Shown piece by piece: positions 43,513 to 61,873 of a DNA stretch of 64,000 nt (its first letter is position 1; each line of letters begins with the position of its first letter). Location: positions 72,488 through 136,487 of the forward strand of contig NZ_FQUU01000002.1 of the NCBI RefSeq assembly GCF_900129295.1, in the 5' to 3' direction. This DNA is from Flavisolibacter ginsengisoli DSM 18119. Lineage in GTDB: Bacteria > Bacteroidota > Bacteroidia > Chitinophagales > Chitinophagaceae. The position numbers were made by a program, and so were the translations under genes. The notes under the pieces were generated by a model. It did no database searches. It was not told the origin of the DNA and worked only from the letters and a program-made list of their open reading frames with translations.

Positions 43513-44244
43513 TTACGCTACTTTACGAGAGAAGTCTTTTTGATCAAGTGCTCTTTTAGCATCCATCAGCCTTTTATAGGCTGTTATATTGGTGAGCACA
43601 GCAAGAATAGTGATGGGTATAGTAAATACAGACATCGTTTCAAATACATGATACCTGATACCTTTCAGATACAATTTATAATCACCTCCAATATATTGAG
43701 CTAATATTCCGCAGGCCAATGCAGATGTTCCGATCAAAATAATTCGTTCAGGTCTTTGCATCAATCCCCCTTTGCAATCAATCCCCAGTCCTTCTGCCCT
43801 GGCCCTTGTATAGCTAACCATCATAGATCCTATTAAACCAATGAAGGCAAATAATGAAGAAATGAAATAATGGTGGGATATAAGGTAATAACAAATGCCC
43901 AGGAACATGAATAACTCACTGTAACGGTCAAGTACTGAATCCAGAAGGGCGCCAAAGGAAGAACCCATTCTCCCAAGACGAGCAACTTGGCCATCCAACA
44001 TATCGAATAGGCCGGCAAAAAGTATCAATGCCCCTGCCCAACCCACATAAGAAAGATCGCCACGGTTGGTTTTTTCCGCACCCAAAATAAAAACAGCAGC
44101 AACACCTATATTGAGAATGAACCCAATAACACTTACAGTATTAGGTGTAAAACCCAGCTTGATAAGCAATTTGACAAAAGGATCGATTATCCTGTAAATT
44201 CCGAACTGTAGCCTTATTCTCAGGGGCTTGGTTTCCATAGACAT
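43513..44244 (-). CDS. CDP-alcohol phosphatidyltransferase (phosphatidylinositol phosphate synthase)
   Basis: A 243-residue membrane enzyme that joins a CDP-diacylglycerol to an alcohol. The CDP-alcohol signature D-x2-DG-x2-AR-x8-G-x3-D-x3-D is complete, beginning DMLDGQVARLG. About six hydrophobic segments follow the family pattern. With a myo-inositol-phosphate synthase and a PgpA-like phosphatase in the same operon, the acceptor is most likely inositol 1-phosphate, giving phosphatidylinositol phosphate. Phosphatidylglycerophosphate or serine remain possible by sequence alone. Confidence 0.9.
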   Translation of the reverse strand: MSMETKPLRIRLQFGIYRIIDPFVKLLIKLGFTPNTVSVIGFILNIGVAAVFILGAEKTNRGDLSYVGWAGALILFAGLFDMLDGQVARLGRMGSSFGALLDSVLDRYSELFMFLGICYYLISHHYFISSLFAFIGLIGSMMVSYTRARAEGLGIDCKGGLMQRPERIILIGTSALACGILAQYIGGDYKLYLKGIRYHVFETMSVFTIPITILAVLTNITAYKRLMDAKRALDQKDFSRKVA

Positions 44245-44317
44245 GGTTTTAAGGGTTCAACAACATATGAAGTTGTAGGCAGAAAACTTCTTTCTTGTTT
44301 CATAAATTGGAATAAGC

Positions 44318-44689
44318 TTACCTGAATACAAATTTCTTTTGAAGAGGATAGTTATATGAAATGGCCATAAGCAAGGAAACAGTTGCTTTAGAATATATAT
44401 AGTTGACGTGAGCAAAATGGGTTAAAAGAAAAACACCAAAAGTGGTAAGTATCAAATAACCTGTCCAAACCATAGTGTACCTGAACAACTGAACCTGCCT
44501 TGCTTTTTCCTTGTTGCGAAATACCCAGTTTCTGCCTAATGAAAAATTGGTGATACCACCTATCATTGTTCCTATAGCGCTAGCCCATACATACCATATA
44601 CCAAATATTTCTACGGCTATGATGGTACACCAATAGTCTATAATCGAGGCAATTAAAGAAGCTAATTGAGCTTTGGCGAATGTTTTCAT
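44318..44689 (-). CDS. GtrA-family membrane protein
   Basis: A 123-residue protein with four membrane segments and the GtrA-type pattern: KAQLASLIASIIDYWCTI near the start, MIGGITNFSLGRNWVFR in the middle and a basic end SYNYPLQKKFVFR. GtrA proteins are thought to flip polyprenyl-linked sugars or act in surface glycan synthesis. Here it sits inside the inositol lipid operon, 5 bp after pgpA and 73 bp before the CDP-alcohol transferase gene. It may help move or place an inositol lipid head group; this is inference. Confidence 0.82.
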   Translation of the reverse strand: MKTFAKAQLASLIASIIDYWCTIIAVEIFGIWYVWASAIGTMIGGITNFSLGRNWVFRNKEKARQVQLFRYTMVWTGYLILTTFGVFLLTHFAHVNYIYSKATVSLLMAISYNYPLQKKFVFR

Positions 44690-44694
44690 TATAA

Positions 44695-45144
44695 TTAAAA
44701 ACTCATTTTCACCACTATATGAAGCAGGATATTACTGTAAATTCCTGCCAGGACATCATCAGCCATAACACCCCAACCTCCCGGAAGTACTTCGGCTTTC
44801 CTGATATATAGAGGTTTAACAATATCAAAAAAACGAAAAAAAACAAATGCAAGAGCAATATATTTCAGTTCTGCTGGTATTAAAAAGAGACTGATACACA
44901 TGCCCAGCAATTCATCAATTACTACCCTGTTACTATCCTTACCCCACTCTATCTCTACAACAGATGCTGACCATATTCCAAAAATGGTGATAACAAGGAT
45001 GGTAATAAGATCGAATAAAGCATTTACTCCACGAACCTGGATAAAGTACCAGGCAATACAACCAATAAAAGCTGCAACGGTTCCTGCGCCTTTCCTAATA
45101 TAACCAATACCCAGGCACGTGGAGATCAACTTTGCTATTATCAT
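44695..45144 (-). CDS. PgpA-like phosphatase (phosphatidylinositol phosphate phosphatase candidate)
   Basis: A 149-residue membrane protein of the phosphatidylglycerophosphatase A family. GYIRKGAGTVAAFIGC is the N-terminal signature, VVIDELLGMCISLFLIP follows in the middle, and FFRFFDIVKPLYIRKAEVLPGGWGVMADDVLAGIYSNI near the end has the metal-binding Asp residues. In this operon it is placed to remove the phosphate from phosphatidylinositol phosphate. Its start overlaps the MIPS stop by 4 bp (ATGA), a sign of translational coupling. Confidence 0.9.
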   Translation of the reverse strand: MIIAKLISTCLGIGYIRKGAGTVAAFIGCIAWYFIQVRGVNALFDLITILVITIFGIWSASVVEIEWGKDSNRVVIDELLGMCISLFLIPAELKYIALAFVFFRFFDIVKPLYIRKAEVLPGGWGVMADDVLAGIYSNILLHIVVKMSF

Positions 45145-46469
45145 GACAACACTTCAACGAGGTCCTGGTAGTAATCCAGACCTAAATGGGTAATGAGGTC
45201 TTCACCCATCATATGGCGGAGCGTGTTTTGTAATTTGATCAATTGCTTGAAAATATCATGTTCCGGACGCAACCCTGGAGCTGTTTGTGGCGATTTAAAA
45301 TAAAAAGATAGCCACTCCTGGATGCCTGACATTCCTGCCCTTTTAGAAAGGTCAGCAAATAAGGCAAGATCCAGAACAATAGGAGCTGCAAGTATTGAAT
45401 CCCTGCAAAGGAAGTTGATCTTGATCTGCATAGGATATCCTAACCAGCCAAAAATGTCAATATTATCCCAGCTCTCCTTATTATCACCATGAGGAGGATA
45501 ATAATTGATCCTTACCTTATGATAGAGTTCTCCGTAAAGCTCAGGATTAATATCGGGTTGCAAAATGTCTTCAAGAACTGAAAGCTTGGAAACTTCTTTT
45601 GTTTTAAAATTATCAGGATGATCCAAAACATAACCATCACGGTTACCGAGTATATTAGAGGAGAACCAACCTTTGATTCCCAAAGCTCTTGCATGAAGTC
45701 CCGGAGCAAGGATGGTCTTCATTAAGGTTTGACCAGTTTTAAAATCCTTACCACCTATTGGTGTATTGGTTTCTTTTGCGAGGTCAATCAATGCGGGTAT
45801 GTCAACAGTAAGGTTTGGCGCTCCATTCATGAAAGGAACACCCAATTTTAAAGCTGCATAGGCATAGATCATGGAAGGAGAAATTGCCGGGTTATTGGCT
45901 TTTAGTCCTTCTTCAAAGCTTTCAATTGTTTCATGTACAGCAGAAACCTCAATATATTTTTCTGTAGAGCCACACCAAACCATTACCAGCCTGGCGCAGT
46001 CATTTGCTTCTTTAAAATTTTCAATGTCATCCATAGCCATCTTGGCAAGGTCCCATTTCGTAGCAGCCTCTTTAACATGCTGACCATCAAGGTTAGAAAC
46101 ATAGGTCTTGTCAAATACCGCTTTCATTGGCTTTATAGCTTCCAACTCAGCCTTCACAGCATGAAGCAACATGGGCTCCAGCACTTTGGCATGGCTGGCG
46201 GCTTCAAAAACATTATCACTGTAAACATCCCATCCGCCAAAAACGATATTGTTCAGATCTGTTAAGGGAACAAAATCTTTGATCTTTGGAAAACGATTCT
46301 CTGTTCTTTTACCTAAACGGATATTTCCCATTTGCGTTAAAGAACCTACTGGCTGAGCCAGGCCTTTTTTAACAGCTTCCACCCCCGCTATAACAGTTGT
46401 GGCTACAGCACCTAAACCAGGGATAAGAACCCCAAGTTTCCCATCAGCTTTTTCGATTGTATTATGCAT
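45141..46469 (-). CDS. Myo-inositol-1-phosphate synthase (MIPS)
   Basis: A 442-residue NAD-dependent enzyme that turns glucose 6-phosphate into inositol 3-phosphate (1L-myo-inositol 1-phosphate). The nucleotide-binding loop is VLIPGLGAVATTVIAGVEAV (residues 14-33). The catalytic core has GGKDFKTGQTLMKTILAP and the SSNILGNRDGYVLDHP motif with conserved Lys and Asn/Asp residues. The length agrees with bacterial/archaeal MIPS of the longer kind. It is the first gene of the five-gene inositol lipid operon and provides the inositol for the transferase at 43513. A plus-strand partner was not found. Confidence 0.95.
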   Translation of the reverse strand: MHNTIEKADGKLGVLIPGLGAVATTVIAGVEAVKKGLAQPVGSLTQMGNIRLGKRTENRFPKIKDFVPLTDLNNIVFGGWDVYSDNVFEAASHAKVLEPMLLHAVKAELEAIKPMKAVFDKTYVSNLDGQHVKEAATKWDLAKMAMDDIENFKEANDCARLVMVWCGSTEKYIEVSAVHETIESFEEGLKANNPAISPSMIYAYAALKLGVPFMNGAPNLTVDIPALIDLAKETNTPIGGKDFKTGQTLMKTILAPGLHARALGIKGWFSSNILGNRDGYVLDHPDNFKTKEVSKLSVLEDILQPDINPELYGELYHKVRINYYPPHGDNKESWDNIDIFGWLGYPMQIKINFLCRDSILAAPIVLDLALFADLSKRAGMSGIQEWLSFYFKSPQTAPGLRPEHDIFKQLIKLQNTLRHMMGEDLITHLGLDYYQDLVEVLS

Positions 46470-46679: not shown

Positions 46680-47183
46680 TCAATTTTTAGAGTCCACCTG
46701 TTTGTCCTTTCCTCCAAAGAGCTTATCCAGGAACTTTCTCAGACCGGATTTGGGCTTTTGTTCCTCCTGAGGCGGTTTGGCAATTGTTGAATCGCGTCTT
46801 ACAACTGGTTTCGGCGGAAGACTATTAATAGAATCAGATTGAAATTTTTCCTTGATGTCTGCAGGTGAAGAATAAAGGTTAGCACTATAAATTAACCTAT
46901 CCTCTGCATTGTTTTTCCATACCGGGGAAGGCGGATTTTCAATTACTGCTTTTTCTCCCAGGGAAAGTTTTTGTTCTTCGCTAAAGTTCTTGGTTAGCTT
47001 CCAGGCCTTGCCTTCTTCATCAAAAAATATGTATTTACCTGTACCAACCTGGTAGTAAACATTAGCCTTTGGATAGAAGTATACGGTTTTAACTTTATTT
47101 GTTTCATCGCTCTTTCCAGGTATAGTTCTATAAAGAATGTAGCCAATTAAGCAAACAACCAGGAAAGCAAAAAATATCTTCAT
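46680..47183 (-). CDS. Single-pass membrane protein of the kinase/PBP cluster, unknown
   Basis: A 167-residue protein beginning at the ATG at 47181-47183 (MKIFFAFLVVCLIGYILY); a 12-residue longer start is possible at 47219. One N-terminal membrane helix is followed by a soluble domain (about 25-105, with YYQVGTGKYIFFDEEGKAWKL), then a Pro/Lys-rich linker and a short basic tail (SGLRKFLDKLFGGKDK). I do not recognise it. It lies just downstream of the Ser/Thr kinase gene and is probably cotranscribed, so it could be a substrate or partner in the envelope. Confidence 0.7.
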   Translation of the reverse strand: MKIFFAFLVVCLIGYILYRTIPGKSDETNKVKTVYFYPKANVYYQVGTGKYIFFDEEGKAWKLTKNFSEEQKLSLGEKAVIENPPSPVWKNNAEDRLIYSANLYSSPADIKEKFQSDSINSLPPKPVVRRDSTIAKPPQEEQKPKSGLRKFLDKLFGGKDKQVDSKN

Positions 47184-47229
47184 TAATATCTTGTATTCAA
47201 AGAATGTTCCAATAACCAAACCCTGCTAT

Positions 47230-49143
47230 TTATTGGGCCACCTGGACTTCCGTACTGTCCTTTTTGCGTATATTAAGCTCATCCAAAAGCCTTTTGGCAG
47301 TTGTATCGCCTGAAAACATAGCTTCAGTTAGTAGCTTGGTCCCTTTAAAAACATTTCTTTCATACTGGCAGTTATCATAATCATTGATCTTCAGGATCTC
47401 ATCACTGTCAGCAAACAAATATAAAAAGCCAAGTGTTCTTTTGGCAGGCACATAACCTTTGTCACTGGCTTTTTGGACCCAGTTCCAGCCTTCTTTGCAA
47501 TCAATAGCATCATTTTTCCGTTGCAAGGCCATATTCCCCCATTGATACATGGCTTCAGGAACATCCTGTTGTGCCAGGTAATCATATATATATAATGCTT
47601 CTTTTATTTCATTATTCGCTAAAAAAGTGCGGGCATCCTGCAATTGGGAGTTGATATCTTCCTGTTTTAAACGGACAGCTTGTTGGGCAGAATCCTGCCG
47701 GTGCCATTCGTCAAGTGTTACCAGGTCTGTCTTCTGAACCCAGCCTTTAGAGGTTTGTCCCTTGTTATTGGTAAACTCTGTATAGATGAAGCCATTTTTT
47801 TCATCCAGTGCAGTAATAACGTCATTAGATGGTATCAAATAAGCACCTCTACGGGAAGAGGGGTCAGGTTCATTATGAAAGTATGCCCTCGGCACCTGAA
47901 CTTTGTACTGGCCTATAATGGTTCGCGGTTTAACTGGTTGGGATGCTGTGGCCTGGGTTTCCTGAACCGGTTTATTATTTTCTACAGGCTCAGAACTTAT
48001 AAAAGTATAAGCTATGAATGCCAGTGCCACGACTATTACTAAGAGCCATAACCATTTACCTGCACCTCTCTTTTTATGCTGGCCAGGAATGTTGTTTCCA
48101 ACATGCTGAACTGGTATTTTAGACTGCTGGAATTTGAACAGGGATCTTTGCAGTTCTTCATTTTCCTTTCGAAGCCTTGCCGTTTCTTTCTCTAAAGTTT
48201 TTAGTGCTTCAGTAGCCACCTGGTTATAATTAGCGGGGGAAGTACTGTGGTAGACTACGAAATTGTGTAGTTCTGTGCCATTTACAAACCGGTTATCAGG
48301 TTTTTTTTCAAGACATTTATCTATCATGCGAAGAAGCCACTCGGGTACCTGCATTTCCCTTTCTTTTTTATCATTGGCCCAGGTAGCGGGCAAATGTTGC
48401 CTACGCAATGCAAGTATATCAGGAACAGGGCTTTCCATGTGGGCCACCATCACTTTGTTTCGGGAGGTTTCGCCCCGGTCAGCCAAAGGAAAAGGAACAA
48501 TGCCTGCAACAAGTTCATATAATATAATTCCGAAACTATAAATATCTGTCTGAAACAACATTTTACCATCATTTTGCTCGGGAGCCATAAATTCTATGGC
48601 CCCGGCCTGCCTAAGACTGGTACGTCTTTGCTCATCAGACATCATAGCCATTCCAAAATCGAGTAGTATATAATTTCCGGAATGAATATTAAATTTTACA
48701 TTATTGCTTTTTACATCACCATGTTTTACATCTGCTTTATGACAATGAGAAAGGGCATTAGATAAATGTTCAGCAACCTTGATGATCTCTTTAATGGTAA
48801 ATACAGGGTCGTGGGGTGATTTCAAAAGCTCTTCCAGGTCAGGTCCTTCTATGAACTCCATTTCTATGAAAGGGAAATTACCTGTATCAGTGATACCAGA
48901 GCTAATGATCTTTACCACATTTGGGTTGGGATCCTGGTTAACTTTTTTAAGCTTATTTACCTCGTTTTGAAAATCCGTAAAATGTTTGTCATCTATTGTC
49001 TCACTATAAATGGGTGTTGGTAACAACTTAACAGCCGATATAATTTCACCTATTCTGCGTGCCTTATATACCGAACCCTGTCCGCCGGTTTTCAAGGCAC
49101 CCATATTTTCCAGGCCTTCAGTAATTGTAAAAACCCTTGCCAT
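47230..49143 (-). CDS. Membrane-anchored eukaryotic-type Ser/Thr protein kinase
   Basis: A 637-residue kinase. The N-terminal kinase domain (about 10-300) has the glycine loop LKTGGQGSVYKAR, catalytic Lys39 (AVKLL), HGDVKSNNVKF (catalytic Asp), LDFGMAMM and EFMAPEQNDGK. A coiled coil (about 315-350, LEKETARLRKENEELQRS) leads to a membrane helix (about 370-390). The outer part has an SH3-like region (about 405-475, with KVQVPRAYFHNEPDPSSRRG) and Sel1/TPR-like helices (about 500-620). It lies 2 bp downstream of an FHA gene, in a cluster with PP2C and the SEDS-PBP fusion. It probably phosphorylates Thr residues read by the FHA proteins. Confidence 0.92.
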   Translation of the reverse strand: MARVFTITEGLENMGALKTGGQGSVYKARRIGEIISAVKLLPTPIYSETIDDKHFTDFQNEVNKLKKVNQDPNPNVVKIISSGITDTGNFPFIEMEFIEGPDLEELLKSPHDPVFTIKEIIKVAEHLSNALSHCHKADVKHGDVKSNNVKFNIHSGNYILLDFGMAMMSDEQRRTSLRQAGAIEFMAPEQNDGKMLFQTDIYSFGIILYELVAGIVPFPLADRGETSRNKVMVAHMESPVPDILALRRQHLPATWANDKKEREMQVPEWLLRMIDKCLEKKPDNRFVNGTELHNFVVYHSTSPANYNQVATEALKTLEKETARLRKENEELQRSLFKFQQSKIPVQHVGNNIPGQHKKRGAGKWLWLLVIVVALAFIAYTFISSEPVENNKPVQETQATASQPVKPRTIIGQYKVQVPRAYFHNEPDPSSRRGAYLIPSNDVITALDEKNGFIYTEFTNNKGQTSKGWVQKTDLVTLDEWHRQDSAQQAVRLKQEDINSQLQDARTFLANNEIKEALYIYDYLAQQDVPEAMYQWGNMALQRKNDAIDCKEGWNWVQKASDKGYVPAKRTLGFLYLFADSDEILKINDYDNCQYERNVFKGTKLLTEAMFSGDTTAKRLLDELNIRKKDSTEVQVAQ

Positions 49144-49145
49144 TT

Positions 49146-49949
49146 CTATAATTCGTTTTCATCTGGTGAATAGCTGAATTCCAGCAATGCAGATTGACCT
49201 AAAAGTATCTGGTCGCCTTCCCTCAATTCATAGCCCACCTTGGTAGAATATAATTTTACTGGTTCCCCTTCATTATTTGACCTCACTTTGACCTTATTTC
49301 TTGGAGGCACCCCTCCTTCATCTGCAAATAATAGAAAATGGCCTGTTTCCTGGTCAAATTCTATATGTGCATGCTGACGGCTTATGTAACGATTGCTATC
49401 GCTATCGCTTTTTTCCGGAAAGGCTATGTTATTTTCACGGTAAAAACCATCTGCGGTTTGCACTCTTTTTTCCCGGCCAATAAATATCTTACCACTTCCA
49501 GAGGTAATGATATAAGTTTTCTTTTCAGCTTCTCCCAATCTTATTTTAATAAATGCTGATGCGGTTTTAGGCAATGCATTTTTACGGGTCAATACAAATA
49601 AAGAAGCATCAAGTCCCGGTACCTGTTTTGATTCCGGGGGAGCGCTTTCAGTAAAACTGATTTTTAATTCCCAGTTATCCGGAAGGTCAATGGCATAATC
49701 ATCTGCAATTTTTTGCACTTCTTCATTTCTGAACCTGCCAGGTTCATCAAGGTAAACAGCTGCTTCATACATTTGTTTTTCTTCATCTGGACAGGTAATA
49801 AAAAGCTGGATGCCTTTAATATTTGACCCTTCGCCCCCTTCAGCTTTTTTCAACTGTTCCTTTATAAAATGCAGCAAAGCTTCCCTTACAGTTTTCACAT
49901 CCTTGCTGCTATTTTCAGTGTTCTTTTTAAAAAAATCAAACATGGGCAT
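49146..49949 (-). CDS. FHA-domain protein (FhaA-like)
   Basis: A 267-residue cytoplasmic protein. The N-terminal half (about 15-120) resembles the DUF3662-type domain of actinobacterial FhaA. The C-terminal half (about 150-265) is an FHA domain with KIFIGREKRV, an RYISRQHAHIEFD segment carrying the phosphothreonine-binding Arg-Ser and His, and a later NKVKVRSNN. It is expected to bind phosphothreonine made by the neighbouring kinase. It ends 2 bp before the kinase gene and follows the SEDS-PBP gene by 83 bp. Confidence 0.88.
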   Translation of the reverse strand: MPMFDFFKKNTENSSKDVKTVREALLHFIKEQLKKAEGGEGSNIKGIQLFITCPDEEKQMYEAAVYLDEPGRFRNEEVQKIADDYAIDLPDNWELKISFTESAPPESKQVPGLDASLFVLTRKNALPKTASAFIKIRLGEAEKKTYIITSGSGKIFIGREKRVQTADGFYRENNIAFPEKSDSDSNRYISRQHAHIEFDQETGHFLLFADEGGVPPRNKVKVRSNNEGEPVKLYSTKVGYELREGDQILLGQSALLEFSYSPDENEL

Positions 49950-50032: not shown

Positions 50033-53000
50033 TCATTTCATTCCTTCAATATATCCCGCCTGCAGCAACTTAGGTATAATATGCTTTCCTGCCAACTTTA
50101 CCGCCTCGCTTGATCCTTTAGCCTTTTCAATACGGGTGCAAACAACTATATGACCAGGACCCTTTGCTTTAGGTACAAAAAATACATACCACCCATCATT
50201 TATGCGTTCACCTTTCCATATTCTTTCAGGAGTACCTGTTTTACCTGCAACCACCAAATGTAGGTCCTTGACCTTATTGGCACTTTGCTCCAGCATATAA
50301 CTTTTTATAGTGGCAGCATATTGTGAATCATTAGCTATAGATATTCCCTGCATTGTTTTAATCAGTGAGTCGCTAATTTTCAATACAAACCTGTGAGGAA
50401 TAAGAACCCCATGGTTGGAAACAGAAGCTGCAAGCCTTGCAATTGCCGCCGGGGTTGCAATTAATTCCCCTTGTCCCCAGGCCATTCCTGAAACACCTCT
50501 TCCCCTTGTCTTTCGAATATCATTCTTGTCATAGCTTTTCAGGCTGGAGAATTCTGTTTTTCTCCAGAAGGTGCGCCATTTTTCTTCCTGTTGTTGATTT
50601 CTGGGATTCATTTCATAATAATATCCTCCCACTCCGTGTAGAAACATTCCTGTTTGCATATAAATGGTAGCCATTTCTTCCTGCAAACGTTCTTCATTGG
50701 CCAATTTGATAAAATAGGAATTATTTGATTTTACCAATGCTCTTTCCAATGAAATATTTCCAGCTTCATCGGGCTCCGCACTTTTTATCCTGATCAAATC
50801 CTGTGGTTTTATCAATATAGTTTTATTGGCTGCTGCCATTCCCAGTTTATTGAATGCAGCAAGAGTGGTTGCAATTTTAGCTGTAGATCCGGGTTGAGTG
50901 GCATAAGTAAACCCCAGGTCTGTATTAGTACTCCAGGAGGATAACTTATTTTGTTCCAATAAAGAAAGGTTCAACTGGTCCCAGTTATTCACAGGCGGAA
51001 GAGGATACATGGCAGACGCTAAAACATCCCCGGTGGAATCATCTAATATCACTGTTGATATCCTGTTATCCTGTAAGGAATCATCCATGGAAAATGATTG
51101 TTGTATGCTTGTTTGTAATGCAGCATCCATAGATAACTGAACATCCCTGTTTCTTTTTTTAAAAGCTTCTACCTTTTCACTATTGATGCCCGCCAATAAC
51201 AAAGGTGCAAGTACAGTATAATCTTTTTGAGAAACTGTCATTTCAGTTATTCTTCTAGGTAAAAAACGATTCTCCCTGAAACGGGTAGCAGAAACTGTAA
51301 ATGTTTTTACAGGAGTTTCAAATCCTCTTAGCTCGGCATCAAGCGCATATTCTGCAAAAAAACCATTATTGCCTCCATAAAAGATATTTGTATTGGCATC
51401 TCCAATCCAAAAGAACATTTCTTCGGCAAAAGGATAATACCTGTCGGAACGTTTGTGTGAAAGGGATTCAAGACTGCGTGGATCAAGACCTGCCTTTATC
51501 AAAGAATCCTTTTGAGAAGCGATCATTTCAGGTTTACTGGTAGCCAACAGCTTTCCATTTCTGTCAAATAAACTTCCAGCCTGCAATTTGTTGATAAGAA
51601 TAGCTATCCGGGGGTTATAGCTGAACATGCGTGCACCACTCCTGTCTGCTACAAGTGCAGGCTGAACTACCCATTGCTTGTTATTGAACAGGTACCTCGA
51701 CACATTGATCGTTAAAAGAATCACACCAATACATGCAGCTACCAATGCAGGGAGCATGTTTTTATCCTGTTGCTTTGATATATAATTCATCTGTACAGCA
51801 GTTCCCCTGACCATAGATACAGACAAAAGAAACCCGGCAGCGAGCATATTGCAAATAAGTGATGTTCCCCCGTAACTCACAAAAGGCAGTGATACCCCTG
51901 AAAGTGGTAAAGCCCCTATTGACCCTCCTGCAATCAATAAGAATTGAACAAAGGTGCAGATACCAATGCCTGTACATAAATAAAACAGAAAGGGCCTTCC
52001 CGTTTGCCTTCCAATCAATATAGACCGGTGCAGGTAAATCAGAAATAATATAAAAACGGAAATAATGCCAGCCCAGCCGAAATCTTCCCCTAAGGAAGGA
52101 AGTATCATATCGGTATGCGCTTCAGGTATGGTCTTGGCAAAGCCTTCACCCACTCCCTGGCCTTGTATGCCCCCACTTGACATGGCCCAGATACCATTGG
52201 CTATCTGGTCACCACCGAAGACTTCATTATCCCATTTATTCAGCCATATAGCTTTGCGGTCTGTTAATCGTTGAACAGGTCCCGGAAATATATTATGAAG
52301 TAGTGGCACCTGGTCGATCAACATAAAACCCGACACCACAACCAGGGCCATTATAGCTGACTCACTTAATTGCTTCCTTATAAAAAGCATAACAAGTAAC
52401 ATAATGAGAATGGTAACCCCTGTAGATATCCAGATGTTCTTTAATATCCAATTCGCCAGCACATATAAAACAACAGAAGCCACCATAAAGGCAAAATCAC
52501 CTCTTGAAAAAGAGAACAGGATGATAAAGGTGAAGCAAACAACGATTGCAGGGCCAAGATCGCCTAACATCAGGAATAAAAGAATTGAAGCCAGGATGGC
52601 ACCCAATGCCATCCAGAAAAACGACCATCGTTTTTTCATGGTGACATATTCGGCAAGGAACCTTTCATTGGCAGCAAAAAAGCCCGCAAGGAAAATGATA
52701 ATTAGAAATTTTACCATCTCGCTTGGCTGAAAACCAAAAAGGTTGACCTTAACTCCACTTCCTTCAGGCCCTGTTCCCAGAAGGATGGTTAATAATAACA
52801 ATAGCATCGCCAGTCCAGCCCATTGTATACCCTTAGAGCCCCTGTTGTCTCTAAAAGCAAACATCCTGTACAATCCTGAATCTGCTGTAAAACGTCGTAG
52901 ATCAAATAATAATAGCAAAATAATACCGGTAAACCCTCCTGCTAAATACCATAAAGTACTCCTGGCAAGAAAACGGTCTCTAAGAGGATCCTGCAAGCTT

Positions 53001-54091
53001 AATAATGTTAATAAAGAGAGGCCGGTGAGCAACATAACTATAGGGAGGATATATTGGTCTGTTGCTGAAAATCTGATGCTTAAAATCACATGCAGCAGGA
53101 AAAACCCGACAATGAAAACAATAACAATGATCCAATACCATTTAGTTACCTGGTCAGGCGTACGTACTATTAACGAACCTTCCTTTTTAAGATCAGTAAA
53201 GTCTTTTGTTGATAAAAGTTTAATAGTATGCGGCAATTGAATAAAAGTAAAAGCAGCATCTTCTTTAAGTTCCTGAACCCCTTTTGAAGGACCAAACTGA
53301 AAGCCAGGCTGCATGGGCAACAGCTCATAGGATTTTCCTTCAGGAAGCCCCGAGAAAGCAAACTTTCCATCAGCATCTGTTCTTGTATATGCTATTAAAG
53401 AAATCAATTGACTCCTGTTAAAAGAATCAGTAGCATATATCTTTTGAAGACCTGGAGCCTTTTGAATTCGTTGACCTGTGGCATCAGTAACTTCAGTACT
53501 ATAAATACTATCCTGAGGAATGACCATGGTAAGCCTGACAAGAACCCCATTAACTTTAGTTTCATTCCTGTTCCTTATGCTTCCTGAAATAGTGTGTGCA
53601 CCCAGGCCTACATTTAAGTTAGACGCAAGGGATGGAGGTGAGGTTCTTTCCTGGTTGAAACGTAAAGAATCGGCCCCTGTAAATCCAAGTAGTTTTCTTG
53701 AAACTTCTACTCTTTTTCTAAACGATGCACCACCTGTAGCATAAGCTTCGTCGGCGTTTACATTATACTTTGATTTATTTAATTCACCTATATTATCAAT
53801 AATATCATTCTCAGAATTCAGCTTTTGGCTTACTATGGAACTAATTAATTGAATATCCTTTGGATCTTCAAAATAAAAGCCCTTTTCCAGCATCTGTTTT
53901 AAACGCTGTCCCGGACTCTCGTCATTTAAATTCACAATAGTCCCTTGCTCTACCCTGGAAGGAACTTCGGTAAAATCTCTTTTTAATACTGTAAACAATG
54001 AATTGAAAAGCAGTAATAAGATGACTGCAATGCCAATCAAGCCTATTCGTTCTTTTATTCTTGAGGTATGATGCTGCAAACCATTTGTCAT
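50033..54091 (-). CDS. SEDS peptidoglycan polymerase fused to a class B penicillin-binding protein
   Basis: A 1352-residue protein if it starts at the ATG at 54089-54091, one base after the PP2C stop. A 16-residue longer start exists inside PP2C. The order is: membrane helix (about 20-36); a periplasmic region (to about 315) with a carboxypeptidase-regulatory-like fold (GSIRNRNETKVNGVLVRL, TDADGKFAFSGLPEG); about ten SEDS membrane helices (about 320-760, with FQPSEMVKFLIIIFLAG and LPLSGVSLPFVSYGGTSL); a PBP membrane helix (about 775-795); a PBPA-type pedestal (LQAGSLFDRNGKLLA); and the transpeptidase with STAK (Ser 1069), SNN (about 1120) and KTGT (about 1282). It would both polymerise and crosslink peptidoglycan. 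Confidence 0.93.
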   Translation of the reverse strand: MTNGLQHHTSRIKERIGLIGIAVILLLLFNSLFTVLKRDFTEVPSRVEQGTIVNLNDESPGQRLKQMLEKGFYFEDPKDIQLISSIVSQKLNSENDIIDNIGELNKSKYNVNADEAYATGGASFRKRVEVSRKLLGFTGADSLRFNQERTSPPSLASNLNVGLGAHTISGSIRNRNETKVNGVLVRLTMVIPQDSIYSTEVTDATGQRIQKAPGLQKIYATDSFNRSQLISLIAYTRTDADGKFAFSGLPEGKSYELLPMQPGFQFGPSKGVQELKEDAAFTFIQLPHTIKLLSTKDFTDLKKEGSLIVRTPDQVTKWYWIIVIVFIVGFFLLHVILSIRFSATDQYILPIVMLLTGLSLLTLLSLQDPLRDRFLARSTLWYLAGGFTGIILLLLFDLRRFTADSGLYRMFAFRDNRGSKGIQWAGLAMLLLLLTILLGTGPEGSGVKVNLFGFQPSEMVKFLIIIFLAGFFAANERFLAEYVTMKKRWSFFWMALGAILASILLFLMLGDLGPAIVVCFTFIILFSFSRGDFAFMVASVVLYVLANWILKNIWISTGVTILIMLLVMLFIRKQLSESAIMALVVVSGFMLIDQVPLLHNIFPGPVQRLTDRKAIWLNKWDNEVFGGDQIANGIWAMSSGGIQGQGVGEGFAKTIPEAHTDMILPSLGEDFGWAGIISVFILFLIYLHRSILIGRQTGRPFLFYLCTGIGICTFVQFLLIAGGSIGALPLSGVSLPFVSYGGTSLICNMLAAGFLLSVSMVRGTAVQMNYISKQQDKNMLPALVAACIGVILLTINVSRYLFNNKQWVVQPALVADRSGARMFSYNPRIAILINKLQAGSLFDRNGKLLATSKPEMIASQKDSLIKAGLDPRSLESLSHKRSDRYYPFAEEMFFWIGDANTNIFYGGNNGFFAEYALDAELRGFETPVKTFTVSATRFRENRFLPRRITEMTVSQKDYTVLAPLLLAGINSEKVEAFKKRNRDVQLSMDAALQTSIQQSFSMDDSLQDNRISTVILDDSTGDVLASAMYPLPPVNNWDQLNLSLLEQNKLSSWSTNTDLGFTYATQPGSTAKIATTLAAFNKLGMAAANKTILIKPQDLIRIKSAEPDEAGNISLERALVKSNNSYFIKLANEERLQEEMATIYMQTGMFLHGVGGYYYEMNPRNQQQEEKWRTFWRKTEFSSLKSYDKNDIRKTRGRGVSGMAWGQGELIATPAAIARLAASVSNHGVLIPHRFVLKISDSLIKTMQGISIANDSQYAATIKSYMLEQSANKVKDLHLVVAGKTGTPERIWKGERINDGWYVFFVPKAKGPGHIVVCTRIEKAKGSSEAVKLAGKHIIPKLLQAGYIEGMK

Positions 54092-54092
54092 T

Positions 54093-55538
54093 CTAGTGTA
54101 TAGAGTTTTGAGCTGTAGTATCTTTTGATAGAGTTGCATTCCGGAAAACTGTTTTCAGGTCGCCTGTACCTGAAAACCTAAATGCAACATTTATGGGACA
54201 ATTTTTAAACTTAACCCCCTTGAGTTGCAGACTTTCCTTTCCGGTCATGGATATTCCAATATCAAAACCATCAATTGTAAGGCTATCAATAACAAGTGAC
54301 CTGCATTCTGGGGAAACCATTATGGCAACCCGGTTGGATGAACTGCTGTCCCTTAACAGTATTGTATTTTTCCCTTTCAGGTAAAGCGAAGGCCTGTTCA
54401 CCCATAAAGTGTCAGTCAAATAAAGTATATGATCTTTGCTCCCCGTCTCCAATTCAACGGTGTCACCTGGAGAGGCATTGATAAACGTCTGTAGCCTGAT
54501 TTCCTGTACATTCTTTTCCTTTTTTACCACTTCGCCGGGAGTTCCCGAGAAATGATTTTTACTCCACCACATCCAGATAAAACCACTAAGGAATAAAAGG
54601 CAAAGTATGGATAGTATCCAAAGAATATTATTATGCCTTTTGCCAGGGTTAGATACCTGTGATGCTACTGTTTGATGTTTAGTTGTGGCCACTGGCTCAA
54701 CACTTTCATCCATATCATTCCTGGAAATTACAGGCTCAACTTTTTTCTTCTTTACCAGGACCGGCTTCGATGCGGGTTGCTTTAATGGCTTTTTATTATT
54801 TTGAACCAGGACCACCGTTATATTATCCTTACCACCAGCCTCATTAGCTGCCTCTATTAATTCCGCAGCTTTTTGTTCCAGCGAACTTTTCTTTTCCAGC
54901 ACTTGTGAAATCCGTGCAGAACTGATCATATCTGACAGACCATCGCTGCAGATCAATAGAGCATCCCCCGGCAGGAATGGAGATTCACCGGTTTCGATAT
55001 AGTCTTCTGCTAAAATAGATTGGTTATCGAAACCCAGTGCCTTATTGATCTCGTTGCGCTTTGGATGCCTCATAGCCTCTTCTTCAGATATACGGCCGCT
55101 ATCTTCAAGGTAACCTACAAATGACTGATCCCTGGTTACTTTTATTAAAGAATGGTCACGATACAGGTAAAGCCTTGTATCTCCTACATGCGCATAATAA
55201 AATTTATTGTTCTTAACATCAACCAGTGCAAGGGTAACTACACAAGCCATACTGGAATTCTTTCCACTTTCCAGTTTTTCCTTGTATATCCTTTCATTTG
55301 AAGAAATGATAGCCTCTTTCATTTTCCGTATAGGATCGGAAGGAAGCGTAGTAAAAGAATTTAAAAATTCTTCCTTGGTAATTTCAGCCGCAACTTCACC
55401 GCCTTCATACCCACCCACCCCGTCAATAACCGAAGCAAGAATCCATTGTTTATTAAACACTTGACGAGCTACAAAAGCATCCTCATTATTATCTCTTATC
55501 CTTCCTGTGTCTGTAAGTCCAAAGAAGTTATCAGCCAT
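54093..55538 (-). CDS. PP2C-family Ser/Thr phosphatase, membrane-spanning, with beta-helix-like outer domain
   Basis: A 481-residue protein. The catalytic PP2C domain (about 5-240) has RDNNEDAF, VIDGVGGYEGGEVA, HVGDTRLYL, ICSDGLSD and GGKDNITVVLV, with the metal-binding Asp residues. It would reverse phosphorylation by the nearby Ser/Thr kinase, as PstP does for PknB in actinobacteria. A basic linker (about 250-300) leads to a membrane helix (about 308-328). The outer domain (about 345-481) has short repeated strands (SLYLKGKNTILLRD, SLVIDSLTIDGFDI, SLQLKGVKFKNCP) like a right-handed beta-helix. The stop is one base before the SEDS-PBP start. Confidence 0.92.
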   Translation of the reverse strand: MADNFFGLTDTGRIRDNNEDAFVARQVFNKQWILASVIDGVGGYEGGEVAAEITKEEFLNSFTTLPSDPIRKMKEAIISSNERIYKEKLESGKNSSMACVVTLALVDVKNNKFYYAHVGDTRLYLYRDHSLIKVTRDQSFVGYLEDSGRISEEEAMRHPKRNEINKALGFDNQSILAEDYIETGESPFLPGDALLICSDGLSDMISSARISQVLEKKSSLEQKAAELIEAANEAGGKDNITVVLVQNNKKPLKQPASKPVLVKKKKVEPVISRNDMDESVEPVATTKHQTVASQVSNPGKRHNNILWILSILCLLFLSGFIWMWWSKNHFSGTPGEVVKKEKNVQEIRLQTFINASPGDTVELETGSKDHILYLTDTLWVNRPSLYLKGKNTILLRDSSSSNRVAIMVSPECRSLVIDSLTIDGFDIGISMTGKESLQLKGVKFKNCPINVAFRFSGTGDLKTVFRNATLSKDTTAQNSIH

Positions 55539-55637: not shown

Positions 55638-56579
55638 TCAGGATTTAAAGATGTTAATACCTACTATACCGTTTAAAACCACTTTTGAATTAATGGGAAG
55701 TTCAGTCCAGGTGGGGTTGTTCTCAAAGCTCTTTGCCACCTGCTTTTCATTTACAATCGTCTTTTCTCCAAAGGAAGCAACATAAAGCTTCCCTTCTGCC
55801 TTATTATACCGTATGCGAAGATGTGGAGTATTCACCCATTCTGAAGGAATGCGAAAGACATTTGAATTGGCATGTACTTCCTCTTTTCCCGATACAATTA
55901 CCTCTTCATCCCTCATAACATATTCTATCTTTCTCCCCGCATACTCTTTTTCTGGAATGATGGCTTCAAACCTGGCGAAGAAGGATGGCTTTGAAACAGC
56001 ATGTTCATGATAAACAAGGTTTTCCTGGTAGGGAACTTCATAATATCCTTCACTATAGAAAGTAAACCCATTTAAGATTTCCGGGCTGATATCTGCAGTC
56101 TGAGCAATACCTGTTTGCCTCGGAATAAAGGTTATTCGTAGATTCTCCTCCTTTTGCATGTTTCCGGGCAACAATTTTCCTATAAAACTTTTATCACCTC
56201 TTTCATAATCAGGATGAGAAACAAATCTGAAAACCCATTTGGAACTTGAAGGCTCCACAGTTTTATTCTGAGCACGATATGCCTTCAAGGCTTCATAAAA
56301 CTGTTTTACAGATTCCTGTACAATAAGCCCAAAGATTCCCTTTTTGTTATCTGTAAAATCCCTGTAATCATCCGTATTAAAGCAGATGATATATTCATGG
56401 TAAAAAACTATCCTGTTGGCAAAAGATAAATGTCCGATCGACTCTTTGAATTTGTCGATAATATATTTATATACTTCATTAGGAGTTATCCCTTCCCTTG
56501 ATGCTTCAGCAATATCTTCTTTTTTAAGAAACCATTCATGCATTCCAATTCGTTGCCAGAAAGAAGGTTTTGTTTTCAT
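55638..56579 (-). CDS. FhaA-like protein with C-terminal FHA-like domain
   Basis: A 313-residue protein that heads the kinase/PBP cluster. Residues about 1-120 (IGMHEWFLKKEDIAEASREG, SFANRIVFYHEYIICF) look like the FhaA N-terminal DUF3662 type. The C-terminal 90 residues (LRIRYNKAEGKLYVASF, then VNEKQVAKSF and LPINSKVVL) are FHA-like but lack an obvious RxxSxxH core, so phosphopeptide binding is uncertain. It lies 99 bp upstream of the PP2C gene. The assignment comes from layout and weak motif resemblance. Confidence 0.6.
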   Translation of the reverse strand: MKTKPSFWQRIGMHEWFLKKEDIAEASREGITPNEVYKYIIDKFKESIGHLSFANRIVFYHEYIICFNTDDYRDFTDNKKGIFGLIVQESVKQFYEALKAYRAQNKTVEPSSSKWVFRFVSHPDYERGDKSFIGKLLPGNMQKEENLRITFIPRQTGIAQTADISPEILNGFTFYSEGYYEVPYQENLVYHEHAVSKPSFFARFEAIIPEKEYAGRKIEYVMRDEEVIVSGKEEVHANSNVFRIPSEWVNTPHLRIRYNKAEGKLYVASFGEKTIVNEKQVAKSFENNPTWTELPINSKVVLNGIVGINIFKS

Positions 56580-57250: not shown

Positions 57251-60200
57251 TTATACATAACTGGAAGTTCTACCAGCATTAGCATCCGCCGCCTGGTGCT
57301 CAGGAACTTGTCTCAAAGGAATTACTATAATGAAGGAAGCACCTTCGCCTTCCTTACTTTTGGCTGTAATGATGCCATTATGCCTCTCGATAATCTTTTT
57401 AGTTATCGCAAGTCCTATTCCTGTTCCATCATATTTATCCCAGGCATGGAGACGTTGAAAAATTATAAATATTTTTTCTGCAAACTGGTTATTGAAGCCT
57501 ATTCCATTATCTTCTATGGTTATACGGCAATATGCACCATTGACATCAAATGAGTCAACAAAAGATAGTTCGCTCACCCTGGTAGCATTTACTTTTATTA
57601 CAGGTGAAATACCAGGCCGGTTGAACTTTAAAGAGTTACTAATAATATTTTGAAATACCTGCCTCATCTGGGCGCTGATAATTTCTGCTTCAGGCAAATT
57701 ACCAACTTCTATTGTTGCGTTTTTTTCCAAAATAGAAAGCTCAAGGTCACTTAATACCTCTTCCAATAAATTATTTAACCCCGTCAATTCAAACTTACTT
57801 TCACCAGACAGTCTTGTAAATGCTAAAAGGTCATTAATCAATTTTGTCATTCTTGAGGAAGCCTTGATGATCCTGTTCATATAATCCATAGCCTCGCTGG
57901 CAGAATTGGAAAGATATCGGTCTCTTACCAGGTTACTGAACATATGTATCTTACGCAAGGGCTCTTTTAAATCGTGAGAAGCAATTGAAGCAAATTGAAG
58001 CAGTTCACCATTACTGGCCTCCAATTCCATATTTATCTTTTGAAGTTCTTCCGTTCTTTCTATAACCTTTTGTTCCAAAATATCATTCATCAATTTATGG
58101 TCATTGATATTGGTACATGTACCAAACCATTTTACTATAATACCATTCTCATTCCTTAATGGAACTGCACGGGCAAGGAACCAATTGTATACCCCATCGT
58201 ATCGTTTCAATCTATACTCAATTTCATAAGATGTTCCTGTTTGAAGGCTATGCTCCCATAACTTCATTGACCTGTCAAAATCATCGGGATGTAACACTGC
58301 TGGCCAACCTTTTTCTATTGTATCTTCCTGTGTCAGGCCCGTGTAATCATACCAACCCTTATTAAAAAAGTCATAATGACCATCTGGTTGCGTTGACCAG
58401 ACAACCTGGGGCATGAAGTCTGTTACAAAGCGAAACTCCTCTATAAGGTCTTGTAGTTCATTATTCGTATCCTTCAATTTTTGTTCAGCTAATTCCGCCT
58501 CAGTAATATCTACCATGGAACCTAGCATCCGGTAAGGCGTTCCTTCATTATTGACAAGCACAGCACCCTTATCCTGGATAATAGCATAAGTTCCGTCCTT
58601 CTTTTCAAACCGGAACCGTTCAGACCAGTTATTGGAACCATTATTAATAGCTGTATAAATACTATTGGTGACTCTATCCCTGTCATCAGGGTGAATTTGG
58701 TTGATCCAAAAAGTACTGGTCAATTTGTGTTCAAGTTTTTCAAAACCAAAACGGCTGTAGAAACTCTCACTCCACCAAATCCGGTTGTTTACCAGGTCCC
58801 AATCCCAGATAGCATCATTAGTAACATTAGTAATCAACCTGAAACGCTCTTCACTTTTAGTCAATTCAAACGTTCTTTCCTTTACTTTATCCTCCAGGGC
58901 TATATTCAGGTTGCGGTAATTTTCCTTAACCTTCATTAATTCAAAATAATTACTCCTGAACTTTTCCTCAGCCTTCTTCTTATCATTTATATTGGTAAGA
59001 CTTACAACAATTCCATCCATCATTTGCGACACTATCAGGTCAAACCAATGGTTTTCACCGGAAATAGATAATGCAACTTCAGTCTGTAAAGGAACTGCTG
59101 TGTTGACAACAGAAACAAATTTTTCAAATAATTCATCTTTGATTAATTCCGGGAAATTAGCCTTAAGAGATTTCCCTAAATAATCAGGCGCCGATCGTTG
59201 TAATAATTCATCAGTGGCATAGTTGGCAGTTATCCAGTTGAAATCAACTATTTCATCCTTGTCATTACGTTTAGCTTTTAATGCCATGATCGCACTAATG
59301 GAAGAATTGAACACTGCCTGAACTATATTATTCAGCTCCTTAACATTGCTGATATCAATAAAAGTGATGACTACGCCATCTACCTTTTTATCCTGCCTGA
59401 TGTAAGGCAGTATCTTCATCAGGTTGGTATTTCCATTACTTAATACAACTTCTTTCTGAATAATCACCTGGTCTTTCAACACTTTCTGAATATCCTCAAT
59501 GAAATTCTTGTTTTCCCGGATGTTGGTAGAAATATGTTCTATTGGCCTGCCTATGTCTGATTCGATCAGGTTAATCATTTTGACAGCAACTGGATTGAAC
59601 TTCCGAATGCGAAGATTACTATCTACAAATACCTGGGCAATTTCAGTGCTTCTGAAATAGTTATTCAGATCATCATTTAATTCTATCAATTCCCTGATAC
59701 GAAGCTGGTGTTCGGTATTCAATGTATGCAACTCTTCATTCAGGGATTGCAATTCTTCATTACTTGATTGTAGTTCTTCATTTGCAGATAACAATTCCTC
59801 GTTACTGGATTGCAGTTCTTCATTGGCAGTTTCAAGGCTTTCGATAGCCATCTGGAGGTGTGACCTTGTTTCTTTCAATTCATCCTCTAGTTCTGCTATA
59901 TAATTGAGTGATTCAGTATGGTTGCCGGAAGTGAATTCAGGAAGGGGTTTTACAGCCTGGGCCTCATGATTCTCACCAAGAACGATCATGGTATGTCCAT
60001 CTTTATTGGCAGGCCGCACAAAAATATTAATGTTGCTATCCCTGTTCTGAACCCTTATATTATTTAAGCTAACAGTGACCTTTTCTCTTAAGGCCTTACG
60101 AATAGCGGCATTTAAAGCAACCGCCAATTCGCCATTAACCATTCTAAGAATATTTAAAGAAATGATCTTATCCGGCAAAGACAAATACTTTTTGAAATCG

Positions 60201-61822
60201 CCTATTGCTTCCCTGATCTCAAAATTCTTATCAATATAAATAGCCGCAAAACCATATTCTGCAACCAACACATTTCTAAAATCATCTGCGAGTTCTTTCT
60301 CAAGTGTATCTTCCTTTCTGGGGGCAATAGTCCTTATTTCCCGAGGGGTTTTGAACATTTGCGCAGAGGGTAATCTTTCAGGGTTATATTTTACATCACT
60401 GATAATTTTTCTGAAGATCTTCCATTTTCCATTTACTTCTTCAAACCCATCTTTCACTGTTGCAGGTGTTTCACTCGGGCCCAGGAATAAATAACCACCT
60501 GCATTTAAAGAGAATTGCAGGGTGGACAATACCTTTCGCTGCAGAATATTGTTCATATAAATGAGCATATTCCTGCAGGTCACCATATCATTTTTTATAA
60601 ATGGTGGATCTTTTAACACATTATGACGGGCAAAGACAATCTGCTTACGCAACCTGGGTTGAACAACAACATGACTTCCATCCTTGATAAAATACCGGTT
60701 AACCAATGCAGGTGATATTTCTACCACACTTGAAGCAGGATAGGTTGCTTTTGAAGCGAATTCAATGGCATCAATATCAAGGTCACTGGCAAATATTTTT
60801 ACTTCAAGCTTCTTCCCCATGCTTTGCAAAAGATCATCAATCAGGATTGCCAGTGAATACGCTTCCTCACCAGTGCTGCAGGCGGTGACCCATATCTTTA
60901 ATATCTCGTTATCATTTTTTGAATTGATAATATCCGGCAAAACTTCCCCGCGCAATATTTGGAAGGCTGCACTATCTCTAAAGAATTTGGTAACTCCTAT
61001 CAAAAACTCTTTTCCAAGCGAACGGCATTCTTCTGGCGATATACGCAAAAATTCAAGGTAGTCCGTGAACTTTTTATATCCCATCAGTCCCATTCTTCTT
61101 GTAATGCGTCTTAAAATGGTAGGGGTCTTATAATTATGAAAATCATAACTGCAATGTTTTTCAATAAGCTTTAAAACCTCGGGCAGCAGGGTTTCATCTG
61201 GCTTATCTTCAGTTACAATATGAATAGGCCGTTCATTAATATAATTGAATACCTCCTCCGGCATTAACTCAGGTGCCAGTATTAGATCCGCAAAACCGGT
61301 AGCTATAGCTGTATTCGGCATACCATCAAACTTGGCGGATAAAGGATCCTGCACCAGTACCATACCCCCTGCCTGTTTGATACTTTGTATACCTTTTGAT
61401 CCATCAGAACCTGTACCTGAAAGAATGATGGCAATTGCTTTTTCTGCCTGGTCTTCAGCCAAAGAATGAAGAAAAGTATCTATAGCTGTGTTGGGAACCT
61501 TATCAAAATTCTTTACACCCAATTGCAGGTGCCCATTCTTAATGGTAAGCAACTTGTTATTAGGGATCACGTAAACACAATTACTCTCCGCCTTTGCACC
61601 ATGGGTGGCCTCATACACCTGCATATGTGTATGCTTGGATATAAGTTCAACCAGTAAGCTTTTATAATCAGGTGAAAGGTGTTGAATAATAATAAAAGAC
61701 AGGTTGCCATTAGAAGGCATATTATCAAAGAATTCGTGGATGGCTTCCAATCCACCTGCAGAGGCACCAATAGCAACAATAAAATGCCCCTGGCCCTCAA
61801 TATTTTTTTTCGAACCGTTCAT
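57251..61822 (-). CDS. CheB-CheR-multi-PAS hybrid histidine kinase
   Basis: A 1523-residue fusion. A CheB methylesterase domain (about 10-200) has Ser in AIGASAGGLEAI, His in IIQHLSPDY and Asp in LSGTGSDG. A CheR methyltransferase (about 215-480) has LIGVTKFFRDS and IWVTACSTGEEAYSLAI. A coiled coil (about 640-700) is built of NEELQSS-type heptads, with about four PAS/PAC modules (690-1250) after it. The kinase has His in ASIASHDLKEPLRKIHMF (about 1290) and an HATPase with IEDNGIGFNN and GTGIGLAITKK. No receiver domain is fused. It follows the bacteriophytochrome gene by 51 bp and may receive its signal; that is inference. Confidence 0.94.
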   Translation of the reverse strand: MNGSKKNIEGQGHFIVAIGASAGGLEAIHEFFDNMPSNGNLSFIIIQHLSPDYKSLLVELISKHTHMQVYEATHGAKAESNCVYVIPNNKLLTIKNGHLQLGVKNFDKVPNTAIDTFLHSLAEDQAEKAIAIILSGTGSDGSKGIQSIKQAGGMVLVQDPLSAKFDGMPNTAIATGFADLILAPELMPEEVFNYINERPIHIVTEDKPDETLLPEVLKLIEKHCSYDFHNYKTPTILRRITRRMGLMGYKKFTDYLEFLRISPEECRSLGKEFLIGVTKFFRDSAAFQILRGEVLPDIINSKNDNEILKIWVTACSTGEEAYSLAILIDDLLQSMGKKLEVKIFASDLDIDAIEFASKATYPASSVVEISPALVNRYFIKDGSHVVVQPRLRKQIVFARHNVLKDPPFIKNDMVTCRNMLIYMNNILQRKVLSTLQFSLNAGGYLFLGPSETPATVKDGFEEVNGKWKIFRKIISDVKYNPERLPSAQMFKTPREIRTIAPRKEDTLEKELADDFRNVLVAEYGFAAIYIDKNFEIREAIGDFKKYLSLPDKIISLNILRMVNGELAVALNAAIRKALREKVTVSLNNIRVQNRDSNINIFVRPANKDGHTMIVLGENHEAQAVKPLPEFTSGNHTESLNYIAELEDELKETRSHLQMAIESLETANEELQSSNEELLSANEELQSSNEELQSLNEELHTLNTEHQLRIRELIELNDDLNNYFRSTEIAQVFVDSNLRIRKFNPVAVKMINLIESDIGRPIEHISTNIRENKNFIEDIQKVLKDQVIIQKEVVLSNGNTNLMKILPYIRQDKKVDGVVITFIDISNVKELNNIVQAVFNSSISAIMALKAKRNDKDEIVDFNWITANYATDELLQRSAPDYLGKSLKANFPELIKDELFEKFVSVVNTAVPLQTEVALSISGENHWFDLIVSQMMDGIVVSLTNINDKKKAEEKFRSNYFELMKVKENYRNLNIALEDKVKERTFELTKSEERFRLITNVTNDAIWDWDLVNNRIWWSESFYSRFGFEKLEHKLTSTFWINQIHPDDRDRVTNSIYTAINNGSNNWSERFRFEKKDGTYAIIQDKGAVLVNNEGTPYRMLGSMVDITEAELAEQKLKDTNNELQDLIEEFRFVTDFMPQVVWSTQPDGHYDFFNKGWYDYTGLTQEDTIEKGWPAVLHPDDFDRSMKLWEHSLQTGTSYEIEYRLKRYDGVYNWFLARAVPLRNENGIIVKWFGTCTNINDHKLMNDILEQKVIERTEELQKINMELEASNGELLQFASIASHDLKEPLRKIHMFSNLVRDRYLSNSASEAMDYMNRIIKASSRMTKLINDLLAFTRLSGESKFELTGLNNLLEEVLSDLELSILEKNATIEVGNLPEAEIISAQMRQVFQNIISNSLKFNRPGISPVIKVNATRVSELSFVDSFDVNGAYCRITIEDNGIGFNNQFAEKIFIIFQRLHAWDKYDGTGIGLAITKKIIERHNGIITAKSKEGEGASFIIVIPLRQVPEHQAADANAGRTSSYV

Positions 61823-61873
61823 TAATCAGAGTCTATTACCAATGTTTTGCCAAAAAATATAACGATATGAACT

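Follow-up and report, generated by a model that had tools for sequence, protein, structure and literature searches.

A fused SEDS polymerase and class B penicillin-binding protein of Flavisolibacter ginsengisoli: a probable third peptidoglycan synthase and counterpart of the actinobacterial kinase-linked RodA-PbpA pair

Background

The canonical peptidoglycan synthases RodA-PBP2 and FtsW-FtsI consist of a SEDS polymerase and a class B penicillin-binding protein (PBP) that are made as separate proteins. What, then, is a protein that holds both in a single chain, and to which of the known synthases is it related? This question is raised by a gene of Flavisolibacter ginsengisoli DSM 18119, located at 50033-54091 on the minus strand of a stretch of 64,000 nucleotides (contig NZ_FQUU01000002.1, positions 72,488 to 136,487), which is called the window here and to which all coordinates refer unless another locus is named. 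The original prediction, made from the letters of this stretch, had read the gene as a fusion of a SEDS polymerase, a class B PBP and a periplasmic beta domain. We conclude that the fusion is probably a third, additional peptidoglycan synthase and the Bacteroidota counterpart of the actinobacterial kinase-linked RodA-PbpA pair, fused into one chain.

The fusion by itself is not new, since natural SEDS-PBP fusions are already in print: excerpts of PMC10449877 mention them and cite the Rhodococcus RHA1 genome for one, which by its description, the only basis of comparison, has SEDS and PBP in one open reading frame (ORF), as here. To present the fusion as an exception, as was done initially, is therefore an overstatement, all the more as 240 stretches encoding relatives were found in named genomes. 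Among the matches listed in the open full-text literature, which covers few of the subscription papers, no title deals with a Bacteroidota SEDS-PBP fusion or its gene cluster. Not found there either were its status as a third synthase, the cluster in which its gene lies together with those for an FhaA-like protein, a PP2C phosphatase, an FHA protein and a Ser/Thr kinase, and the grouping of its SEDS half with the RodA of kinase clusters.

Results and Discussion

Both enzymatic halves lie in one reading frame

The frame at 50033-54091 is intact and codes for 1352 amino acids (aa), with a computed mass of 150.25 kDa when translation starts at 54091. The ORF 50033-54139 begins 16 codons earlier at the first ATG and gives 1368 aa, with position 54139 falling inside the upstream PP2C gene. 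The second ATG, 54091, is located one base past the stop of that gene and is preferred because many relatives' fusions begin at or beside the PP2C stop.

The SEDS glycosyltransferase region (residues 345-761, 51809-53059) matches FTSW_RODA_SPOVE (PF01098) with E 3e-46 and 158.4 bits, compared to a cut-off of 26.4, and the transpeptidase domain (residues 1012-1326, 50114-51058) matches Transpeptidase (PF00905) with E 8e-23, also over the Pfam cut-off; like all parts of the fusion named below, both are on the minus strand. D661 in the sequence PEAHTD (52109-52111) aligns with the SEDS aspartate of FtsW and RodA chains of known structure, which we take to be the catalytic residue. Alignment furthermore places the SxxK motif STAK at residues 1069-1072 (50876-50887), the SxN motif SNN at 1122-1124 (50720-50728) and KTGT at 1284-1287 (50231-50242). 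The protein thus has the Pfam model and the conserved aspartate of a SEDS glycosyltransferase as well as the transpeptidase domain with SxxK, SxN and KTG of a class B PBP. Frame, Pfam matches and alignments agree with the initial description, in which SEDS and PBP form a continuous polypeptide, preceded by a beta domain, with STAK, SNN and KTGT intact.

Could such a protein have kept the folds only and serve as a catalytically silent scaffold or sensor? Its PBP half is more divergent than those of distant homologues (Pfam E 8e-23 vs 5e-35 to 7e-37), as one might expect in this case. However, an alignment of 15 fusions shows no variation in D661, STAK, SNN and KTGT, and across 50 fusions S1069, K1072, SNN, K1284, G1286, T1287 and D661 are invariant and the remaining motif residues conserved at more than 90%, which makes a silent protein very improbable.

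The two halves are joined by a membrane helix (residues 777-802, 51686-51763, by hydropathy). Another explanation would be that the chain is cut after synthesis into its SEDS and PBP parts, so that the fusion matters for co-translation only; in purified preparations of an artificial RodA-PBP2 fusion, a small part of the protein is reported to be cleaved. However, the link between the last SEDS helix and the membrane helix of the PBP has only about 15 residues, is presumably cytoplasmic and is partly conserved. We regard cleavage as improbable.

A probable third SEDS-PBP synthase

SEDS proteins are encoded three times in the genome of F. ginsengisoli, and in every case there is a class B PBP close by. 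The genes ftsI and ftsW are about 5 kb apart on contig 45, a pbp2-rodA pair is on contig 20, and the fusion is separate from both; the assignment of the two stand-alone sets rests on the SEDS and PBP trees described below. Separate rodA/pbp2 and ftsW/ftsI, for which the original prediction had proposed a check, are thus present in the same genome. The same holds more widely. In 20 chosen genomes, each of the 14 with a fusion has two further stand-alone SEDS genes, and the six without it have two; one genome, G547, carries two fusions.

Folds and active-site residues are common to the fusion and the canonical pairs RodA-PBP2 and FtsW-FtsI. In contrast, these are separate proteins which belong to other clades, and the fusion stays below the NCBIfam equivalog cut-offs for canonical FtsW and RodA (147.6 vs 337.5 and 140.7 vs 336.7 bits).

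Probable kinship with the actinobacterial RodA-PbpA cluster

For the SEDS half, a tree of 42 rows was calculated, which is unrooted, with a midpoint root for drawing only. Listeria RodA was left out of it as a long branch and a Spirosoma plasmid row as a near-copy; the PBP tree, too, does not include this plasmid row. Arthrobacter RodA (L180) was omitted for want of a full-length frame. The 14 fusions form one clade (100/100), apart from the FtsW and canonical RodA rows. Furthermore, one branch (100/99.7) separates these 14 together with three RodA encoded beside PBP and FHA/kinase genes from the 25 FtsW and canonical RodA; these three reference sequences make up the whole kinase- or FHA-linked RodA side. 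The fusions again form one clade (100/100) in the tree of the PBP half, which has 25 rows.

Such a RodA is known from the actinobacterial cluster fhaA-fhaB-pstP-rodA-pbpA-pknA-pknB (excerpts of PMC6554272). At the Tsukamurella locus L178, genes for FhaA, an FHA protein, RodA, PbpA and two kinases stand in a row, the RodA and PbpA genes overlapping by four bases; its gene table, which is incomplete, lists no PP2C. FHA, SEDS and PBP genes are also adjacent in a clostridial record, Monoglobus. The order in the fusion, SEDS then PBP, is that of the actinobacterial cluster as in L178 and the reverse of pbp2-rodA, and the fusion may thus have arisen from such a pair when the four-base overlap between its genes was lost.

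The genes around the fusion are of the same kind. On one strand, the minus strand, follow in order a 313 aa protein (55638-56579) that is probably FhaA-like, a PP2C Ser/Thr phosphatase with a membrane helix by reading (54093-55538), the fusion, an FHA-domain protein (49146-49949; PF00498 just over cut-off) and a Ser/Thr protein kinase (47230-49143; PF00069) with a membrane helix and a C-terminal part by reading. The conservation of this neighbourhood was followed in the named genomes, where the best 80 of the 240 stretches encoding relatives were fetched; the neighbour counts rest on these 80. A relative of the PP2C is present in 80/80 loci, of the 313 aa protein in 78, of the FHA protein in 79 and of the kinase in 75, with some of the fetched stretches being short and kinases possibly located on either side. 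An FHA domain is found, at E up to 1, in all 28 aligned homologues of the FHA protein. The full gene set surrounds the fusion in G668, in three Spirosoma-type genomes and on a Spirosoma oryzicola plasmid. The more distant genomes G471 and G587 have the genes in the order FhaA-like, PP2C, fusion, FHA, and a kinase gene lies several kilobases off; in G458 and G547 the FhaA-like and FHA genes alone flank the fusion. Thus PP2C, FHA and Ser/Thr kinase neighbours of the actinobacterial type are retained beside the fusions of the window's class; G458 and G547 have only some of them. They point to phospho-regulation of the synthase. While the architecture of the fusion had been recognized in the original prediction, these kinase, phosphatase and FHA genes had been missed.

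The likeness to the actinobacterial cluster lies in FHA, PP2C, SEDS followed by class B PBP, and Ser/Thr kinase side by side, probably with FhaA as well, and in the grouping of its SEDS with the SEDS half of the fusion. It differs in that SEDS and PBP of the window are one chain, which at its N terminus also has a further membrane helix and a predicted periplasmic domain, in the kinase without detected PASTA domains and in the gene order.

The 313 aa protein has no Pfam match of its own. FhaA_N was found at 0.0037 in one of 26 homologues. It also matches the gene that immediately precedes the fusion in the distant genomes, with scores that exceed the cut-off in G458 and G547 but fall short of it in G471 and G587. 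When compared as profiles, the family of the 313 aa protein matches the FhaA_N/FHA proteins beside distant fusions (96.5%, E 8e-10, 265 columns). Its link to FhaA rests on such intermediate sequences, whereas the family itself gives a weak profile match (7%) to three FhaA sequences from Actinobacteria.

This last value is one of several results that weigh against a counterpart of the actinobacterial pair. FhaA_N (PF12401) has no match in the genome of F. ginsengisoli at E 10. In G458 and G547 further matches, one of which exceeds the cut-off, lie elsewhere than beside the fusion, and Sulfolobus is matched weakly as well; therefore, FhaA_N is not confined to the fusion cluster. No PASTA domain was detected by Pfam in the kinase, which reaches 138 bits with NCBIfam PknB_PASTA (cut-off 450); its sensor therefore differs from that of PknB. 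The pedestal model of Pfam, PBP_dimer, is listed neither in the fusion (at E 0.01) nor in three homologues (at E 1). The PBP tree does not support a union of the fusions with PbpA (72/35). Neither a PP2C nor a kinase relative was found within the 19 kb that were fetched for the fusions of G458 and G547, and the second fusion of G547 has only a kinase, some kilobases off, in the fetched stretch. Finally, in a class-wide draw only 10 of 395 genomes match at E 1e-90, own genome included; therefore, the group can do without the fusion.

The result of the PBP tree and the lack of PP2C and kinase relatives around the G458 and G547 fusions would also suit another explanation, namely that a RodA-PBP2 or FtsW-FtsI pair of the ordinary kind, present as an additional copy, became fused by chance and is not connected in function with the kinase genes beside it. 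For a SEDS-PBP fusion to work, linkage of the two halves can be enough: according to excerpts of PMC6207328 and PMC10449877, artificial RodA-PBP2 and SpoVE-SpoVD fusions are functional, the synthetic RodA-PBP2 of Escherichia coli, in which SEDS likewise precedes PBP, both in cells and in vitro. The latter differs from the fusion studied here in being engineered, in having neither an N-terminal beta domain nor a kinase cluster, and in the position of E. coli RodA within the canonical clade. However, a chance fusion of an ordinary pair does not agree with the separate clade of the fusions and their grouping with the RodA of kinase clusters, nor with the retention of the neighbours in different families of this class. 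We consider it unlikely, and hold a counterpart of the kinase-linked RodA-PbpA pair to be the best explanation of the fusion.

Distribution of the fusion

A frameshift or an assembly error that joined two genes, which had been named as grounds for abandoning the fusion, can practically be dismissed. In 58 genomes, the own one and its relatives, searched at a threshold of E 1e-20, 20 matched, 18 with fusions and two with ordinary SEDS proteins. Sixteen of the 18 fusions are in one full-length frame and two are cut by contig ends. Within the window's genus the fusion is present in 16/18 genomes, the two misses being 78% and 62% complete; it is present in 2/17 genomes from the rest of the family and in 0/23 at the level of the order. 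Holders of the fusion include genomes that are a single contig (G003, G015, G344, G471, G587 and G668). Likewise, an intact frame of more than 1300 aa is found in 78 of the 80 named loci, which come from Segetibacter, Flavisolibacter, Cnuella, Mucilaginibacter, Pedobacter and others. The two exceptions are L122, cut by a contig end, and L052, with one in-frame stop; this latter copy (L052:8217-12248) is from a Segetibacter metagenome-assembled genome.

In a draw across the phylum 15/395 genomes matched at E 1e-45, the own one counted, some of them outside the class and with frames of 1222-1387 aa. An unfused Bacteroidota version was not seen at E 1e-28 in 395 genomes (a weak negative, with two candidates scored per genome).

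Structure models and the N-terminal region

The full chain is over the size limit for folding, and residues 1-790 and 153-1352 were folded apart. Both models are of moderate confidence (mean predicted local distance difference test, pLDDT, 76 and 72; predicted template modelling score, pTM, 0.71 and 0.56) and are not used for conclusions on the packing of the halves. For the model of residues 1-790 Foldseek gave five matches only at E 0.001, every one a SEDS chain, among them FtsW (8p1u, E 2e-7) and RodA (8tj3, E 9e-6). The model of residues 153-1352 matches PBP3 (E 3e-12) and PBP2 (E 4e-11) over about 560-620 columns, with a low TM-score.

Hydropathy and the first model place an N-terminal membrane helix at residues 12-40 (53972-54058) and a second one, in front of the SEDS helices, at residues 312-340 (53072-53158). 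The region from residue 60 to 287 between them is probably periplasmic. According to the model it begins with a predicted helical region (residues 60-150, 53642-53914), followed by a beta domain of the CarboxypepD_reg or CNA-B (prealbumin-like) type (residues 158-287, 53231-53620). CarboxypepD_reg is below the Pfam cut-off here (23.2 vs 32.3 bits) and over it, with 38.9 bits, in the distant homologue L143. Weaker Foldseek matches to pilin domains and intradiol dioxygenases (E 0.005-0.08) are taken to be due to this beta domain.

In the window's class, the SEDS halves of the fusions contain an insert. Between DLGPA and HTD there are 147-151 residues in 11 fusions of this class, compared to 96-99 in four distant fusions, 98 in E. 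coli FtsW and 101 in E. coli RodA; these counts cover the fusions and the E. coli rows, as the stand-alone Bacteroidota SEDS rows did not match the motif patterns. In the model, the additional 50 residues or so (approximately residues 545-600, 52292-52459) are predicted to form two further membrane helices.

Further observations on neighbouring genes

Downstream of the kinase on the minus strand a small protein (46680-47219) has no family over cut-off and is only loosely linked, with relatives in 10/80 loci. Among the 28 homologues of the FHA protein, two also have a HEPN domain of the Swt1-like type (E 1.5e-25). For the C-terminal stretch of the PP2C (54096-54551), Pfam indicates a weak likeness to right-handed beta helices (E 0.007, below cut-off); it is perhaps a periplasmic sensor on the phosphatase. 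In one genome, G587, a single frame of 1384 aa (L147:8262-12416) holds PP2C, SEDS and transpeptidase, all over cut-off, and Pfam lists no beta-domain family in it. The plasmid of Spirosoma oryzicola mentioned above (L141, NZ_CP089545.1, a record of 137 kb) carries the whole cluster as FHA-PP2C-kinase-kinase-fusion-FHA; the module may therefore move between replicons.

In the region 43513-46469 a myo-inositol-1-phosphate synthase (Pfam) is accompanied by small membrane genes and a CDP-alcohol phosphatidyltransferase by reading, as for the synthesis of inositol lipids; a relative of the synthase is near the fusion in 2/80 loci. On the other side, at 57251-63445, a chimera of 1523 aa reads as CheB-CheR-PAS-histidine kinase beside a phytochrome-like gene.

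Proposed mode of action

With both halves translated as one chain, every polymerase would carry its transpeptidase. Judged by its sequence, the fusion may be expected to polymerise and crosslink lipid II like other SEDS-PBP pairs. The separate SEDS-PBP pairs are acted upon by MreC and FtsQLB; the N-terminal periplasmic domain may take this role as a built-in activator or sensor. The membrane-bound kinase would sense the envelope and be opposed by the PP2C, and the FHA proteins would read phosphothreonines and switch or recruit the synthase. Most likely, kinase, phosphatase and FHA proteins together would decide when the synthase works.

We tentatively go one step further, with somewhat less than an even chance of being right: these genes may constitute in Bacteroidota a complete kinase-phosphatase-FHA controlled synthase module of the kind described from Actinobacteria, which represents an old third SEDS lineage. 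Its synthase would be a single chain equipped with a periplasmic domain for activation or sensing, and one lineage would have the phosphatase in this chain as well. If true, a signalling enzyme would there be physically built onto a wall-building enzyme.

Conclusion

The finding is more interesting for the cluster and the lineage than for the fusion itself. Control of wall synthesis by Ser/Thr kinases is hard to study in Actinobacteria, where several of the genes are of importance to growth. In Bacteroidota, a module of this kind consists of additional genes, apparently dispensable for the group, and is present in named strains of Pedobacter and Mucilaginibacter. A natural single-chain SEDS-PBP protein fixes the ratio of its halves at 1:1 and offers a system for structure determination, for the coupling of polymerisation and crosslinking, and for the targets of the phosphatase and the FHA proteins. 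The probable kinship with the actinobacterial cluster suggests an old common origin of the module, or its transfer between phyla.

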